Below, piece after piece: positions 1,861-36,214 of a stretch of DNA of 64,000 nucleotides; position 1 is the first letter of the stretch, and the number at the start of each line of letters is the position of its first letter. The position numbers and the translations under genes are program-made. The DNA is taken from assembly GCA_035063765.1 (NCBI GenBank), contig JAPSFT010000001.1, positions 195,497 through 259,496 on the forward strand, read 5' to 3'. This stretch comes from Deltaproteobacteria bacterium. Its GTDB lineage: Bacteria > Myxococcota_A > UBA9160 > PR03. The notes beneath the pieces are model-generated. The model did no database searches, was not told where the DNA came from, and saw only the letters and a list, made by a program, of their open reading frames with translations.

Positions 1861-3945
1861 CTACTCGGGGCAGGGCGTGCCGAGCGGCGCCGGCGCGGGC
1901 AGAGTGGCGCGGCCGGTGTCGAGGTAGCTCCGGAAGAAGCAGCCGTACTGATACTTCACCTGGTCGAGCTGCGCGTAGATGTAGTGCGGGTCGATGATGC
2001 CGTCGCCCGCGTACTGCACGGCAGCGGCGGTCACCCGTGAGCCGTCGGCCGAGAGGAGGTTGTCCTTCACCGGATACGGGAGGAGCCCGTCGCGGCCGTC
2101 GAGGGCGAGCGTGTCCTGCATGCTCTGCCACTCGAGCTCGCCCGCTTGCTGGGTGCCGTTGGCGAGCGCCAGCGCATCGTAGATTTCTACCGGGAAATAT
2201 TCGTCGCCCGGGGCGCTGGTCGCGTAGATGGGCCGCGCGGGCGCGCCCTCGAGCGGCCAGCGCGCGAGCCGCGCGGCGTACACCATCGGATCGGCGGGCT
2301 CCCACGCGGTCTCCAGGGCGTGGAGCGCCGGGTAGGTGAAGTCGATGTCGATGGCCCCGGCGCCGCTCACCATCGCGAACAGCTTGCCGAGGTTTCCGAC
2401 GTAGTGCGTCTTGATGATGAACTGGCTCCAGAAGCCGCCCGCGCCGGTGGGGGCCACCGCGCGCACCTTCGGCTCCACCGCGCCCAGCATGTTGGTGTAC
2501 ATGCCGCCCATCGACTGCCCCTGCAGCATGAGCGGCTCGAGATCGAAGCGGAAGGACGACTGCCCCGCGGGCAGGCTCGGCCCCGTGCAGGCGCCGAGCG
2601 CGGCCGGAGCGATCGTGAGCGACTCGAGCGCCTTCACATAGAGGCGCTGCTCGAACACGCCCTGCCGGAACGTGTAAGGGAAGGCGCCCAGGTTATTGAA
2701 GTTGATATAGGCGAGATCACCGGCGCCCGGCACGCGCTCCGGGTTCACCGGCAAGGCCGAGCTCGCCGCGGCGAATCCGTGCTCGGCGACCACGTAGGCT
2801 GGGCCCTCGAGCGGGGTCGGCTCGCCGTCTGGGGTCGGCGTGCGGCCGCGATCGACCACCTGGATGCTGACGCCGCCCGAGCCGTGCTCGTAGAGCACGA
2901 GCGGGTAACCGCCCGCGGGCATCTCGCGTTTCGGGAGTGTGAGCACCACCGGGATGGTGACCTTGCCCTGCTCGACAGGAACCCCCTCGGCGTCGAGCTC
3001 GAAGTGTCCCTCCGTGTCATAGAGGGGCTCACCCTTTTGAAAGACCGGCAGCTCGAGCGTGCCCTGGAGGGCGCAGAAGCGCGTCGAGGCGGTGGTCGCG
3101 TCGACCAGCGTGAGCCCCTCGATCTGGGGCGAGTACTTCGCGACCAGGGCATCGGACGTGCGCGCGGTGTCTGCGACCACGTCGCCGGTCGTGAACACGG
3201 TGGCCGCGGCGACCTCCGCGGTCGGGATCCCCACGGTCTTCAGGGTCTGCCAGAGCGGCGCGAAGGAGTCGCGAGCGGCTTCGCCGCGCGGACCGGGGAG
3301 CGCACGCCCCGCCTCGAGCGCGCGGAGCCGGGCGGGTACGCCGAGCTTCTTGCCGCTGGCATCCCCGAGTGAGCGCTGGATCACGAACGCGTATTTCCGG
3401 TTCCCTCGCAGTAGGACGCCCGGGTACGCGGCCACCGCCAGGAAATTCTCGGGAACGTACTTGTCGTCCTGGGCGGTCGTCACCGCGACCGTAGGGTAGA
3501 GCTTGCCGCGCTCCGGCGAGCTCTCGTCGACGTCGATGAGCAGCACCGGCGAGGAGGCGTCTGCCGGCAACAGGTCGTCGACCCGGCGCGCTCCGAGCGG
3601 CGCGTCGAAGCGGAACCAGCCGACCGCGACCGTGGGGAAGCCCTTGCGCGCGGAGGCCGCCTCGATGACGCCGGCCACGGTGGCGCTCCCGAGCGGGTTC
3701 GGGAACCCGCCGAAGTCGGGGTGGCCGGCCGCATCGAGGCGCAGATCCGAGGGCCACGGGAAGTCGTAGAAGGCGCGCGCGGCGGCGGCGGGATCGTCGG
3801 GGTGCTCGAGCGGCGCGAAATCGACGTCGAAGGCGACCTGGGCGCCCGCGAGCGCGGCCGGCGGGGAGCCCTCGCTCTCGGCGCCGCAGGCCACCGATCC
3901 GAGCCCGAGCAGCAGCGCCAACCCGGCGGAAACACGGAGCGTCAT
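1861..3945 (-). CDS. Secreted lipoprotein with alpha/beta-hydrolase (lipase-like) domain
   Basis: A 694-residue protein starting at ATG 3945 with a lipoprotein signal (LLLGLGSVAC), so it is probably anchored at the cell surface or outer membrane. The N-terminal half has an FPWPSDLR...FPNPLGS block and appears beta-rich. The C-terminal half is a hydrolase fold: LVLYEHGSGG resembles the oxyanion strand, GQSMGG is a GxSxG nucleophile elbow with Ser about residue 478, and later GDEYFP and GIIDPHYIY could carry the acid and the His. It resembles predicted bacterial extracellular lipases with an extra N-terminal domain. Longer in-frame starts up to 4044 would destroy the signal peptide. Substrate unknown; ester hydrolysis is inference from the motif. 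Confidence 0.7.
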   Translation of the reverse strand: MTLRVSAGLALLLGLGSVACGAESEGSPPAALAGAQVAFDVDFAPLEHPDDPAAAARAFYDFPWPSDLRLDAAGHPDFGGFPNPLGSATVAGVIEAASARKGFPTVAVGWFRFDAPLGARRVDDLLPADASSPVLLIDVDESSPERGKLYPTVAVTTAQDDKYVPENFLAVAAYPGVLLRGNRKYAFVIQRSLGDASGKKLGVPARLRALEAGRALPGPRGEAARDSFAPLWQTLKTVGIPTAEVAAATVFTTGDVVADTARTSDALVAKYSPQIEGLTLVDATTASTRFCALQGTLELPVFQKGEPLYDTEGHFELDAEGVPVEQGKVTIPVVLTLPKREMPAGGYPLVLYEHGSGGVSIQVVDRGRTPTPDGEPTPLEGPAYVVAEHGFAAASSALPVNPERVPGAGDLAYINFNNLGAFPYTFRQGVFEQRLYVKALESLTIAPAALGACTGPSLPAGQSSFRFDLEPLMLQGQSMGGMYTNMLGAVEPKVRAVAPTGAGGFWSQFIIKTHYVGNLGKLFAMVSGAGAIDIDFTYPALHALETAWEPADPMVYAARLARWPLEGAPARPIYATSAPGDEYFPVEIYDALALANGTQQAGELEWQSMQDTLALDGRDGLLPYPVKDNLLSADGSRVTAAAVQYAGDGIIDPHYIYAQLDQVKYQYGCFFRSYLDTGRATLPAPAPLGTPCPE

Positions 3946-4049
3946 GGCTCCCGACCATAGCTGAATCGAGTCGGCCGGCCATGGCCGTAGAGCGCGCCAT
4001 CCGGCGCGGGCCCAGGCCTCGGCAACTCGAGCGAGAGGTTTCAAGGTTG

Positions 4050-4085
4050 GAGCGCGTTCATTTCATTCATGAAATGAACGCGCTC
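4050..4085. promoter_or_regulatory. Perfect 16-bp inverted repeat, possible enhancer (UAS) or hairpin
   Basis: The arms at 4050-4065 and 4070-4085 (GAGCGCGTTCATTTCA and its exact complement) flank a 4-base centre, TTCA. The inner part is unusually AT-rich for this genome. It lies 68 to 103 bp before the predicted start of the small RNA at 4153, a normal place for a sigma-54 enhancer-binding protein. It could instead be a hairpin ending the minus-strand alpha-2-macroglobulin transcript, but no T-run follows on either strand. Confidence 0.5.
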
Positions 4086-4126
4086 GGTCAGGTCGGCTAA
4101 GCCTAGGTTCTATGGGCGGGCGACGC

Positions 4127-4141
4127 TGGCATGGTAGCTGC
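4127..4141 (+). promoter_or_regulatory. Sigma-54 (RpoN) -24/-12 promoter candidate
   Basis: TGGCATG, four bases, CTGC, followed by A. It matches the consensus TGGCACG-N4-TTGCA except at two positions, and keeps the near-invariant GG (4128-4129) and GC (4140-4141) exactly 10 bp apart. The predicted start is near 4151-4153. No annotated gene begins downstream, only the hairpin/terminator RNA. Confidence 0.55.
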
Positions 4142-4152
4142 AACCTATCGAA

Positions 4153-4254
4153 TCAGGCGTCGCCCGAAGGTGACCCCCCCCGCCCGGGTTGACGCCGTTT
4201 CCTCTGTCAGCGGTCCGAGGTTCCCCCCCTCCCCTCGGGCCGCTGATTTTTTTT
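4153..4254 (+). ncRNA. Candidate small regulatory RNA, about 100 nt
   Basis: Not a recognised family. The transcript predicted from the sigma-54 element would begin near 4153. It would fold a first hairpin from GGCGTC (4156-4161) with GACGCC (4191-4196), strengthened by inner CCCG (4163-4166) with CGGG (4185-4188), and end in a strong intrinsic terminator. No plausible ORF is present: the only frames run through the hairpins without a start and ribosome site. A second pairing, 4117-4126 with 4157-4166 (10 bp perfect), would be available only to a longer RNA. Both flanking genes are on the opposite strand, so this terminator serves neither of them. Sigma-54-driven sRNAs have precedents (Qrr, GlmY); relation to any of them is untested. 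Confidence 0.5.
4207..4254 (+). terminator. Strong intrinsic terminator on the plus strand
   Basis: The 14-bp stem pairs 4207-4220 (TCAGCGGTCCGAGG) with 4233-4246 (CCTCGGGCCGCTGA), with one G-U pair and a 12-nt loop, and is followed at once by eight T residues (4247-4254). It is the clearest terminator in the window. No protein gene on this strand lies upstream of it. Confidence 0.9.
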
Positions 4255-4282
4255 GCTGGGTACCGGATGGAGCGGCCGAGGC

Positions 4283-7200
4283 TCAGTCGGCGCTCACTTC
4301 GAGCGTCGCCGCGGGCGCGGAGGCTCGCTGCTCCGGCTGGTAATAGAGATACGCGCTCGCGCCGCCGTCGCTCGCCTTCACCGGCATGGTGGCCCGGAGC
4401 CCATAGCGGTAGCTCTGCGAAGCGCTCGCTCCGAGCGAGCTCAGATAGAGCGTGAGCTGCTTGCCGGTGAGCTCGTAGTTGGAGAGCGCGCCCGCCGCCC
4501 GGTAGGCGTCGAGCGCCTCTGTCTCGACGGCAAACCCGGGAGGGATCCCCACCGTGACGATGAGCATGCCCTGCGCGCTCGCGGTGTGGTTCTTCACGGT
4601 GACGGTCGCCTCGACCCGCTCGTCCACCGCGAGCGAACGCTTGTCGTAGGAGACGCTCACGCCGAGCGGACCGGTCGCGTCCGGCGGCACAGCGGCCCAC
4701 GGGAGGTTGTGACGCGTCACCAGGTTGTAGCTGACCTTGCCGGTGCCCGCGAAGGAGAGCGTGACCTGATGCGACCCGAGCGTGGCGAGCGGCTTCATGT
4801 CGACGGTGGTCATGACCTCCGCCTGGTCGGGGGTGAGCGAGAGCGTCGTGAAGGGCGCGCCATCCACCTCGACGGCGAGGGTCCCCACGGCGCCCTCGGT
4901 GCCCTTCTCGGCGGCGAGGAGCAGCGCGCGGAGCGTCCAGATGGTCGCCTGCGTCGAACCGAAGTTACCCGCCGGATCCTTCGAGGCAACGAGGAAGGCG
5001 AGCGCGCCGTCCACGTCGTCCTTGAAGCCTCCCGAGAGCAGCATCGCGCGCGCGACCAGCGCGGTCGCGCTCACCGCGGCGTCGGCACCACCGCCGTAGA
5101 AGTTGGTCTGTGTCCCGTCGGTGTCCCAGTACGTCCGCTCACCGTCGGTCTGCTTCGCCGCGTGGAGCTTCGCGAGCACGCCCGCGAGGAAGGCGTCGTT
5201 CGGGGCGGCGGTCGCGAACGCATTGGCCACCAAGCCGAGCGTATACGGATCCGTGTCGTCGCCGAGGCTCGCCTTCACATACGCGAGCCCACGCCCGACC
5301 TCCGCGCCCGTGTAGCCGTTGTCCGCGAGCGCCCACAGCACGAACGCGGTATTTCGCACGGCGCTCGTCTGGAACGAGAAGAACTCGGAGACGTCACCCT
5401 CCCACGAGCCGTCCGACTTCTGCTGGGCGAGGAGCCAGGCCTGGGTGCGCGCGATCATCGCCGCGTCGACCAGCTGCACCTTGGCCATGTCCGCGAACTC
5501 CATCAGCCCGAAGGCGGTGACCGAGAGGAACGGCGCGGCGTCTTGGGTGCCGAACCAGGAGAACCCGCCGCCCGGGTGCTCGAAGGTGAGCAGTCGCTGA
5601 TAGCCGGCCGAGATGAGGCTCTCGGCCTTGAGCGCGATGGCCGGCGTGATCTGTCCGGTCTGGTTCATGTAGCGGGTGACGAGCACGTTCGGCCAGGTCG
5701 TGCTGGTGGTCTGCTCGAAGCAGCCGTTCGGCACCGCCAGCATGCTGTCCATCCCGGTCACGGCCTGCGCGAGCAGCGCCGGATAGATCTCGAGGTACAT
5801 CTCGGGTGATCCGGGCACCGCGTTGGCGGGAAAGTCCACCGCGTGCGAGACGCTCCCCGGCGCGAGCGCGCCGCTCACCGCGGCCGACAGCGCCTTGCCG
5901 TCCGGCACCACCAGCACGTTGCGAGCGAGCGCGTCGGAGGCGGAGCTCCCCGTCGCGGTCACCGTGAGCGTCTGTAGCCCGACCGTCTCGACGCGCACCG
6001 GGAAGCGAACTCCGACCACCTCTCCGGGCAAGAGCTCCACCGTCTTCGTGGTGGCGCCGAGCGGCGTGTACCAGGTCCCGCTCGCGAGCTCGAGCTTCAC
6101 GGCCTGCTTGGTGGAGAGGTAGTTATAGACCGCGATCGGAAACTCGAGCTCGTCACCCCGGGTCAAGGTCGCGGGGAAGCTGATGTCGGCGAAGAAGTCC
6201 TGGAAGACCTTGATGCCGGCCTGCCCGCCGCCGAGCTTGCCGCCCGCCGAGTGCGCGAGCGTCGAGACGCGCCAGCTCGTGATGCTGTCGGCGAGCTCGA
6301 CGCTCACGGTCGCCTTCCCGTTCGCGTCGGTGATGAGCTCGGGGTTCACGTACAGCGTCTCGGGGAAGTCCTTGCGGACACGCGGCCCCGAGCTCTGCTC
6401 GACGCCGCTCGCGCCCCCTGCGCCGCCCATACCGCCGCCGGCGTCCGCATTTCCGCCGCCGGGCATCGGGCCATTGCCATCCGCCATGGGCGGGAGGCTG
6501 TCTTCGACGCCGAGCTCCGCCAGGCTGATGGTGAGCGCGTGATCGTCGGCGGTGTTCACTTGCTCGTCCGGACCGGCGCTCCGCACGTGAAGCGCCGCGT
6601 CGAACGGGGAGCCGTCGATCGAGTAGGCGTTGCCCCAGAAATCGTACTGAGCGAGCGCGCCCTTCACGCGCAAGATGAGCGCCTCGCCGAACGAGCGCTG
6701 CTCGGAGTCGCACCAGCGTCCCGTCTCCGTGCAGCCGCGCGCCGCGAGGGCGCGCACCGCCGCGGTCACCGCCGGTTGCGTCGCCCGGACGATCCGCGCC
6801 TTCTCGGCCTCGTAGTAGGGAGCGAGCTGCGTCTTCGCGCCTTGGATGACCTCCGGCCAGCTCGTGAGGTGCAGTCCCGTGAACGAACCCGAGCCGAGCG
6901 CCGCGAGCGCCGCGGCGGTGCGCTCCTGCGCGGCGCTCGCCTCGGCCGCATCCCGCGAGCGTGTCTTGCCGAAGAGGAGGTCGGAGAGCGCCCCCGGCGG
7001 CGCCTGGAGCTCGTAGCGAGGCTCGGCGTAGGCGTCGTCGAGCTCGAACACGGTCGACAGGAGCCCGGGCCGCGAGTCGATGACCGAGAACACCGCCTCG
7101 TCCACCACCTGCACGCCGAGCGCCGCGACCGCTGGCGCGCCCTGCTCGTCGGTCACGGAGAAGGTCAGCTGCGCGGGCTCGCCCGGCCGGTACTCCGGCT

Positions 7201-34704: not shown

Positions 34705-36054
34705 TCAGCGGTTGTCGAAGGAGATCCCGAGGCGGGTCATCTTGCGCCACAGCGTCGTGGGGCTGATGTCGAGCGCCTCGGCGGCGCGCTCCCGGCTCCC
34801 GTCGCTCGCGCGGAGCGCCGACTCGACCGCCTCGCGCTCGGCGTCGTCGACGATGTCGGCGAGGGTCCGCCCGCTCGCGGGAGAGGGGCCGCGCGGCGCC
34901 TGCGGCAAGATGTCGTCGACCGTGATGAGCCCGCCGGTCGACAGCGCAGTCGCCTGCTCCATCATGTTCTCGAGCTCGCGGACGTTGCCCGGGAACTCGT
35001 AGCTGGTGAGCCGGTCCATCACGCCGTCGGCGACCCGCACGCGAACCCCCATCTTGCGGCCATACTTCTCCAAGAAGAACCCCGCGAGGAGCGGGATGTC
35101 CTCCGGGCGCTCGCGGAGCGGCGGCAAGTGAAAGCGCGCCACGTTCAGGCGGTAGTAGAGGTCCTGACGGAAGCGGCGCTCCTCGACCGCGCGCGCCAGA
35201 TCCACGTTGGTGGCGGTGATCACGCGGATGTCGACGTGGCTCGGCTTGTTCTCACCGACCCGGCGCACCTCGCCATCTTGTATGGCGCGGAGGAGCTTCG
35301 CCTGGAAGGGCGGCGTAGTCTCCGCGATCTCGTCGAAGAAGAACGTCCCGCCGTCCGCCTCCTCGAACATGCCACGCCGAGCCGTGGCGGCCCCGGTGAA
35401 GGCGCCGCGCGCGTGACCGAAGAGCTCGCTCTCGAGCAACGTCTCGGTGATGGCCGCGCAGTTCACCGTCACGAAGGGGCGATCGGCGCGCTTGCTGTTG
35501 GCGTGCACCGCGCGCGCGATGAGCTCCTTGCCCGTCCCGCTCTCGCCCGTGATGAGCACGTTGGCGTCGGTGGGCGCGATCTTCACCACCCGGGTCAGGA
35601 TGTTGCTCATCGCTTGCGAGCGCCCGATGATGTTGTCGAAGTGGTAGCGCTCCTTGAACTCGCGGGCGAACGCCTGCACTTGGCCGTGCAGCTTGCGGCT
35701 CTCGAGCGCCTTCGACACCTTGACGATGAGCTCCTGCTCGGTGAACGGCTTCTGGATGTAGTCGAAGGCGCCGAGCCGCATCGCCTCGACCGCGCTCTCG
35801 ATGGTGCCGTAGGCGGTCATCACGATGACCTCGGTCATCGGCTGTGCCTCCTTGATGGCGCGGAGCACCTCGATGCCGTCGTCGGCACCCATCCGCAGAT
35901 CGGTGATGACGACGTCATAGGCGCCGGTGGCGCCGAGATCCTTGCCTTGAGAACCCTCGGCGGCCTCGTCGACCTCGAACCCGCTGCCGCGAAGCATCAT
36001 CGCGAGCGTGGTGCGCATGTTGCGCTGGTCATCGACGACGAGGATCTTGCCCAT
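34705..36054 (-). CDS. NtrC-family sigma-54-dependent response regulator
   Basis: 449 residues from ATG 36054. The receiver (1-120) has Asp8/9 and phospho-acceptor Asp52 (VITDLRMG). The AAA+ domain (about 140-380) has Walker A GESGTGKE, the sigma-54-contact loop GAFTGA, Walker B GGTFFFDEI and the arginine-rich RQDLYYRLNVARFHLPPLRERPEDIP. A Fis-type helix-turn-helix ends it (ALRASDGSRERAAEALDISPTTLWRKM). It activates RpoN promoters after phosphorylation. No histidine kinase is next to it. The sigma-54-type site at 4127 shows that such promoters may exist locally, but no link can be drawn. Confidence 0.95.
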   Translation of the reverse strand: MGKILVVDDQRNMRTTLAMMLRGSGFEVDEAAEGSQGKDLGATGAYDVVITDLRMGADDGIEVLRAIKEAQPMTEVIVMTAYGTIESAVEAMRLGAFDYIQKPFTEQELIVKVSKALESRKLHGQVQAFAREFKERYHFDNIIGRSQAMSNILTRVVKIAPTDANVLITGESGTGKELIARAVHANSKRADRPFVTVNCAAITETLLESELFGHARGAFTGAATARRGMFEEADGGTFFFDEIAETTPPFQAKLLRAIQDGEVRRVGENKPSHVDIRVITATNVDLARAVEERRFRQDLYYRLNVARFHLPPLRERPEDIPLLAGFFLEKYGRKMGVRVRVADGVMDRLTSYEFPGNVRELENMMEQATALSTGGLITVDDILPQAPRGPSPASGRTLADIVDDAEREAVESALRASDGSRERAAEALDISPTTLWRKMTRLGISFDNR

Positions 36055-36214
36055 GCTGTCTTCCCATACCCCGGTCTGCGAGCGCGCTTCACCCGAGCGC
36101 ACGACGATGGCTTCTTGCCCGTGACCTCTCTCCTCTTGCGCGTCTGCGCCAGCCCGACCCGCCGGCTCTAGACCTTACCCTAGGTCCATCGCCGGCGGAC
36201 TTCCACCCCTGCTC

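Follow-up and report, generated by a model that had tools for sequence, protein, structure and literature searches.

The question raised by this locus is whether a 337-bp gap between two genes of the minus strand holds a small-RNA gene controlled by sigma-54, and what such an RNA might do. The window, which is the whole 64-kb stretch of DNA that was analysed (positions 195497-259496 of contig C1), has a G+C content of 72.7%. Its palindrome, its sigma-54 promoter match and its T-run are all located inside this one gap, between a lipoprotein-like gene, which starts at 3945 and has no Pfam match, and an alpha-2-macroglobulin gene, which ends at 4283. A preliminary description had read the stretch 4050-4254 as a complete sigma-54-controlled small-RNA (sRNA) unit lying between opposite-strand genes. 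Both flanking genes are indeed on the minus strand, and the palindrome, the -24/-12 element, the 5' hairpin and the U-tailed terminator follow one another in that order, each where it had been placed (Table 1). The inverted repeat described there as 16-bp arms around 4 nt is the same object as the 17-bp perfect arms around 2 nt. Comparison with relatives shows 4050-4254 to be, as far as can be judged from DNA sequence, a complete sRNA gene and a member of a multi-copy RNA family. We regard the gene, its promoter and its enhancer, taken by themselves, as very probably correctly assigned.

Table 1. Elements of the sRNA locus, with positions counted from the first nucleotide of the window
Feature	Position	Strand	Remarks
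Possible degenerate distal activator site GTTTCAAGGTTGGAGC	4038..4053	+	Putative; 22 bp above the main site
Main enhancer palindrome	4050..4085	.	Perfect, 36 bp; 17-bp arms around 2 nt
Conserved enhancer core ATTTCATTCATGAAAT	4060..4075	.	T of TGGC lies 67 bp downstream
Sigma-54 -24/-12 promoter TGGCATGGTAGCTGCA	4127..4142	+	Sole strong match in the window
Predicted transcription start	4152..4153	+	Putative; 12 nt past the -12 GC
5' hairpin, C8 loop at 4174-4181	4156..4196	+	Folding; covariation in homologues
Terminator hairpin TCAGCGGTCCGAGG/CCTCGGGCCGCTGA, loop TTCCCCCCCTCC (C7TC4 run at 4223-4234), T8	4207..4254	+	Folding; covariation

Within the window these elements stand out. The palindrome is the longest perfect inverted repeat and is unique there, and a search of the assembly allowing as many as 3 mismatches found no second copy. 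The promoter match TGGCATGGTAGCTGCA, for which correct GG/GC spacing had been claimed and was found, is the single site scoring 7 or more; no site scores 6, and shuffled sequences give 0.5 sites at score 7 and 4.7 at score 6. The eight T that had been noted in the terminator (4247-4254) form the sole T or A run of 7 or more, and the loops of both hairpins are C-runs. The RNA 4153-4254 has a folding energy of -53.5 kcal/mol, compared with -31.8 +/- 3.2 kcal/mol for shuffled sequences (z = -6.8). An automated terminator scan missed the hairpin at 4207-4254 because its loop is 12 nt long.

A perfect 10-bp inverted repeat, CGGGCGACGC/GCGTCGCCCG (4117-4126/4157-4166), brackets the -24/-12 element, and through it a read-through RNA from upstream would fold unlike the sigma-54 transcript. 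This repeat was treated as incidental, since the alternative fold arises only in RNAs begun further upstream and the repeat was not seen in the homologues.

The choice of relatives for comparison depends on the origin of the window. Two different RNase P RNAs occur in the assembly; over the stretch where they match they are 69% alike, and one of the two lies inside the window. By tetranucleotide signatures the right end of the contig groups with the window, and the left 195 kb with the remaining assembly; the composition break is found about 1.7 kb ahead of the window, near 193.8 kb of contig C1. For the lipoprotein, no homologue at E <= 1e-25 is found in the order of the assembly itself, against many with 45-57% identity in other families of the phylum. 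Homologues of the alpha-2-macroglobulin with 59-64% identity occur in the order of the genomes bearing the lipoprotein homologues. Judging from composition and homology, the contig carrying the window is chimeric; most simply, the window is a stretch of myxobacterial DNA that was joined to sequence of another organism and placed in the same bin.

Relatives picked by the taxonomy of the assembly are therefore the wrong ones for the window. Early searches in the genus, family and order of the assembly recovered, at a useful level of identity, no copy of the unit and no homologue of the flanking proteins. DNA similarity searches with 4040-4262 in the genomes of 60 nominal relatives gave no match, and in 79 other genomes of the wrong order a covariance model gave none at E <= 0.01. 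Because the window is foreign to that order, these early nulls are uninformative on conservation and now serve as a negative control; the apparent non-conservation of the sRNA unit was dropped once the chimera was recognised. The other sigma-54 sites of the assembly (at glnB, pilin and flagellar genes) were not used as internal controls because they are on contigs of the other organism. The RpoN gene found in the assembly is also on that organism's part. The window itself encodes a response-regulator-type sigma-54 enhancer-binding protein at 34705-36102 (minus strand), not linked to the sRNA, so that the organism has at least one such activator.

With respect to the main organism of the assembly, its glnB gene (contig C11, locus L091) has a sigma-54 site with an upstream perfect palindrome, GGGGCGCAGCACC-N4-GGTGCTGCGCCCC, which resembles an NtrC site.

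A covariance model (R1) built from the window sequence alone was searched against 184 genomes of the correct order and gave matches down to E 5.8e-13. Following removal of six weak matches, family members were found in 22 genomes belonging to 15 genera and three families of one Myxococcota order; given the strict filters and the one-sequence model, this distribution is a lower bound (at least 15 genera). The family of very large genomes that holds most of the members is probably the Polyangiaceae. The rebuilt model recovered 36 copies besides the window, with E values from 2.8e-5 to 2.5e-15, and in 595 kb of comparison loci it found only the window, the best other match having E 0.51. Loci L208-L213, weakly matched by the first model, were lost with the rebuilt one. 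A genome may carry up to three copies, some of them in tandem: units with their own promoters adjoin each other in L197 and L214, and L217 also contains a tandem duplication. A single transcript with four to six hairpins is predicted in L187, L191, L201, L202 and L205.

The family is built from a repeating hairpin module, whose stem (about 9-16 bp) often reads CAGCGG...CCGCTG and whose loop is C-rich. Modules, usually two and up to six per member, are joined by short pyrimidine-rich linkers, and the last hairpin ends in a U-run. The loops are typically C6-C9, often followed by UC, and the full range of the C-runs is C5 to C13. In the model alignment two-sided compensatory changes are seen in 30/30 pairs, i.e. 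in all 15 pairs of the two helices of the 5' hairpin and in 15/15 pairs of the terminator stem, so that both hairpins of the preliminary description are borne out. The covariation score is 0.651, against 0.174 +/- 0.012 for shuffled alignments and at most 0.10 for slid structures. As the model alignment leans towards the structure, the terminators were re-aligned with MAFFT alone, without the model; in this alignment of 20 terminator hairpins, 10 of the 13 predicted pairs show two-sided changes. Across the family the sequence of the stems varies and the C-loops are kept, and this comparison of predicted structures proves the C-run loops to be the family signature.

Most members have a TGGCAC/T-N6-TGCA/T promoter at the same place as in the window. 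The first hairpin begins 2-9 nt past the predicted start in most homologues, and some copies have 50-130 nt between promoter and first hairpin. As regards the palindrome, the conserved part is the inner 16 bp only. In homologues from 12 genera the core of the palindrome, ATTTCA-N4-TGAAA(T/G), precedes the T of TGGC by 65-68 bp. The best dyad falls at -69..-65 in 18 of the 26 sigma-54-bearing units (window excluded, and counting some orthologues within one genus), where about one would be expected, and 15 of these 18 reach p <= 0.004 for this position. The -69..-65 range was picked after the first results, and a test of all positions from -125 to 0 favours the same sites in most units. The enhancer is missing from its standard place in L199, L200, L203, L204 and L207. 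In several homologues a second, weaker dyad resembling TTKC...RAA lies some 22 bp upstream of the proximal one, and its counterpart in the window is weak or degenerate. Enhancer-promoter composites were sought in a strand-summed total of 1.55 Mb, to which 60 loci without the RNA contributed. All of those found (18/18) precede a C-loop RNA, so that within the sequence examined the enhancer is dedicated to the family. Apart from one Walker-A match in L218, no enhancer-binding-protein gene linked to the RNA was found in the 26 homologue loci.

The preliminary description had staked its reading on conservation in relatives. Once the correct order was searched, the structure of the RNA, its promoter and the core of the palindrome proved to be kept there at near-fixed spacing, which supports the reading of the locus as an enhancer-controlled, sigma-54-dependent sRNA. 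The C-run loops, the multi-copy and tandem family, the restriction of conservation to the inner 16 bp and the chimeric contig were not part of that description.

Several known RNAs resemble the family in part. The CrcZ/CrcY RNAs of Pseudomonas have a sigma-54/CbrB-dependent promoter and, like the window family, repeated short motifs; however, these motifs are CA-rich, single-stranded and bound by Hfq/Crc, and C-loop hairpins are lacking. The Qrr genes of Vibrio have LuxO dyads upstream, and the pairing of their RNAs is Hfq-dependent; Qrr is gammaproteobacterial and differs from the window family in both RNA and dyad. Qrr genes depend on sigma-54, occur in several copies per genome and are activated by an enhancer-binding protein (PMC10162802). 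Among myxobacterial sigma-54 sRNAs, the closest precedent is Pxr of Myxococcus xanthus, a 108-nt multi-hairpin sRNA with a predicted sigma-54 promoter, which has paralogues in some genera and lies beside nla19 in all genomes examined (PMC5568312, PMC5684412). Whereas Pxr is fixed beside nla19, the window unit adjoins the lipoprotein-like and alpha-2-macroglobulin genes, and in stem-loops SL2 and SL3 of Pxr, the part covered by our comparison (sequence from published primers), no C-run of 5 or more occurs.

In form, the closest likeness is to sX13 of Xanthomonas, a strongly structured RNA of about 115 nt with three stems with C-rich loops, which acts independently of Hfq through these loops on G-rich motifs near translation starts (PMC3771888). 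Like it, the window RNA folds stably at a length of about 100 nt and has several apical loops rich in C; the likeness is limited to form. sX13 has three defined stems, whereas the family has arrays of two to six modules with no sequence relationship shown, and in the cited study sX13 is not tied to a sigma-54 promoter or an enhancer dyad, unlike the window family. Similarly, the terminator loop of mycobacterial B11 is C-rich, and through it this sRNA targets G tracks close to ribosome-binding sites (PMC12395582). 6C RNA/B11 shares with the window family the C-run hairpins, terminator loop included, but is actinobacterial. The Rfam 6C model gave no match up to E 10 in the window region and 14 family loci. 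In agreement with the statement of the preliminary description that the unit matched no recognised family, no Rfam family reaches its threshold. The best sub-threshold match of several members is ar7 (RF02342), an alphaproteobacterial sRNA, with 17-36 bits (maximum 35.6) against a gathering score of 60, and probably reflects the C-rich hairpins; Scr3202 also matches below threshold.

We favour, with moderate confidence, the reading of the family as activator-switched sRNAs whose C-loops pair with G-runs near ribosome-binding sites. Judging from the anatomy of the locus, an enhancer-binding protein would bind the ATTTCA-N4-TGAAA(T/G) dyad centred about 85 bp ahead of the start and, on its signal, would open sigma-54 polymerase at the -24/-12 element, giving a terminated RNA of about 100 nt. 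By analogy with sX13 and B11, the C-runs held in stable hairpin loops may pair with G-runs (GGGG, GAGGGG) located at ribosome-binding sites or close to them and thereby block the translation of many mRNAs; copies with more hairpins would offer more binding sites per transcript. Among 158 genes of the loci studied, called by a crude procedure, the frequency of GGGGG at -16..-4, the Shine-Dalgarno position, is about double that further upstream (small counts), and CCCCC is absent at -16..-4 in the same set.

The strongest alternative, which we consider possible though clearly weaker, leaves the promoter logic unchanged and exchanges the partner: the repeated C-loops would act as a multivalent sponge that titrates a C-run-binding RNA-binding protein. 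CsrB titrates CsrA, and CrcZ, a precedent for a sponge RNA, reportedly titrates Hfq/Crc. The loose length of the C-runs and the expansion to six modules speak against simple pairing, as a single seed does not need them, and would suit a protein sponge too; the same can be said of the number of modules, which ranges from two to six with a constant loop motif and drifting stems, and of the tandem duplication of units (L197, L214, L217). On the other hand, most members have two hairpins only, no candidate partner protein is known, and sX13 and B11, the proven C-loop sRNAs, work by pairing. On balance, we estimate pairing to be about twice as probable as titration. A more specific version, in which the RNA family is the main regulon, or the sole one, of a dedicated enhancer-binding protein and the reiterated C-loops titrate a C-run-binding protein that acts globally in large myxobacterial genomes, appears rather unlikely; such an arrangement would be a switch of the CsrA/CsrB or CrcZ type, with a new partner.

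The genomic setting bears on the remaining alternatives. The RNA lies on the opposite strand between the two genes, in a gap where no minus-strand intrinsic terminator is apparent by inspection, and it could thus be complementary to the intergenic region of a common alpha-2-macroglobulin/lipoprotein mRNA and act on it in cis. This is improbable, because the order of the two genes is not kept among orthologues (lipoprotein orthologues occur without an adjoining alpha-2-macroglobulin gene and vice versa, with the RNA absent at either) and the RNA homologues adjoin other genes than those in the window. Still less probable is that the palindrome, 105 bp upstream of the lipoprotein start codon and with perfect outer arms not common to the homologues, is an operator of that gene unrelated to the RNA, since its core recurs at a near-fixed distance from the promoters of homologous RNAs that have no such neighbour. 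A chance assembly of promoter-like and hairpin sequences, conceivable as every element is short on its own, is refuted by the retention of all the elements, in order, in 22 genomes.

Myxobacteria have some of the largest bacterial genomes, and these encode enhancer-binding proteins in abundance. The only myxobacterial sRNA with a worked-out role in the literature searched, a limited library, is Pxr; no description of a C-loop sRNA family was found there, and the family is apparently undescribed. A multi-copy sRNA family with its own enhancer code would give myxobacteria a directly testable Qrr-like circuit, and its C-loop design is likely to control many genes post-transcriptionally. Another lineage would thereby join the xanthomonads and mycobacteria in using C-loop hairpins, and the arrays of one to six modules provide a natural dose series by which pairing may be told from sponging.

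Some minor observations concern the enhancer dyad. The outer arms of the palindrome in the window, GAGCGCGTTC/GAACGCGCTC (4050-4059, 4076-4085), are perfect and are not common to the homologues. Exact palindrome matches in GTDB genomes, mainly of Pseudoalteromonas, were taken as unrelated, no matching sigma-54 geometry being present there; TTCATTTCATNNATGAAATGAA recurs in several Pseudoalteromonas genomes (L038-L048, with others), sometimes twice within a few kb and in a different setting, and is probably an unrelated repeat or operator. Finally, a stretch of 0.8 kb in locus L197 (1201-2018) holds a tandem array of three complete C-loop sRNA units, each with a TGGCACG...TGCA promoter of its own, and two of the three carry the dyad TTGCACGTGCAA in place of the standard enhancer core.
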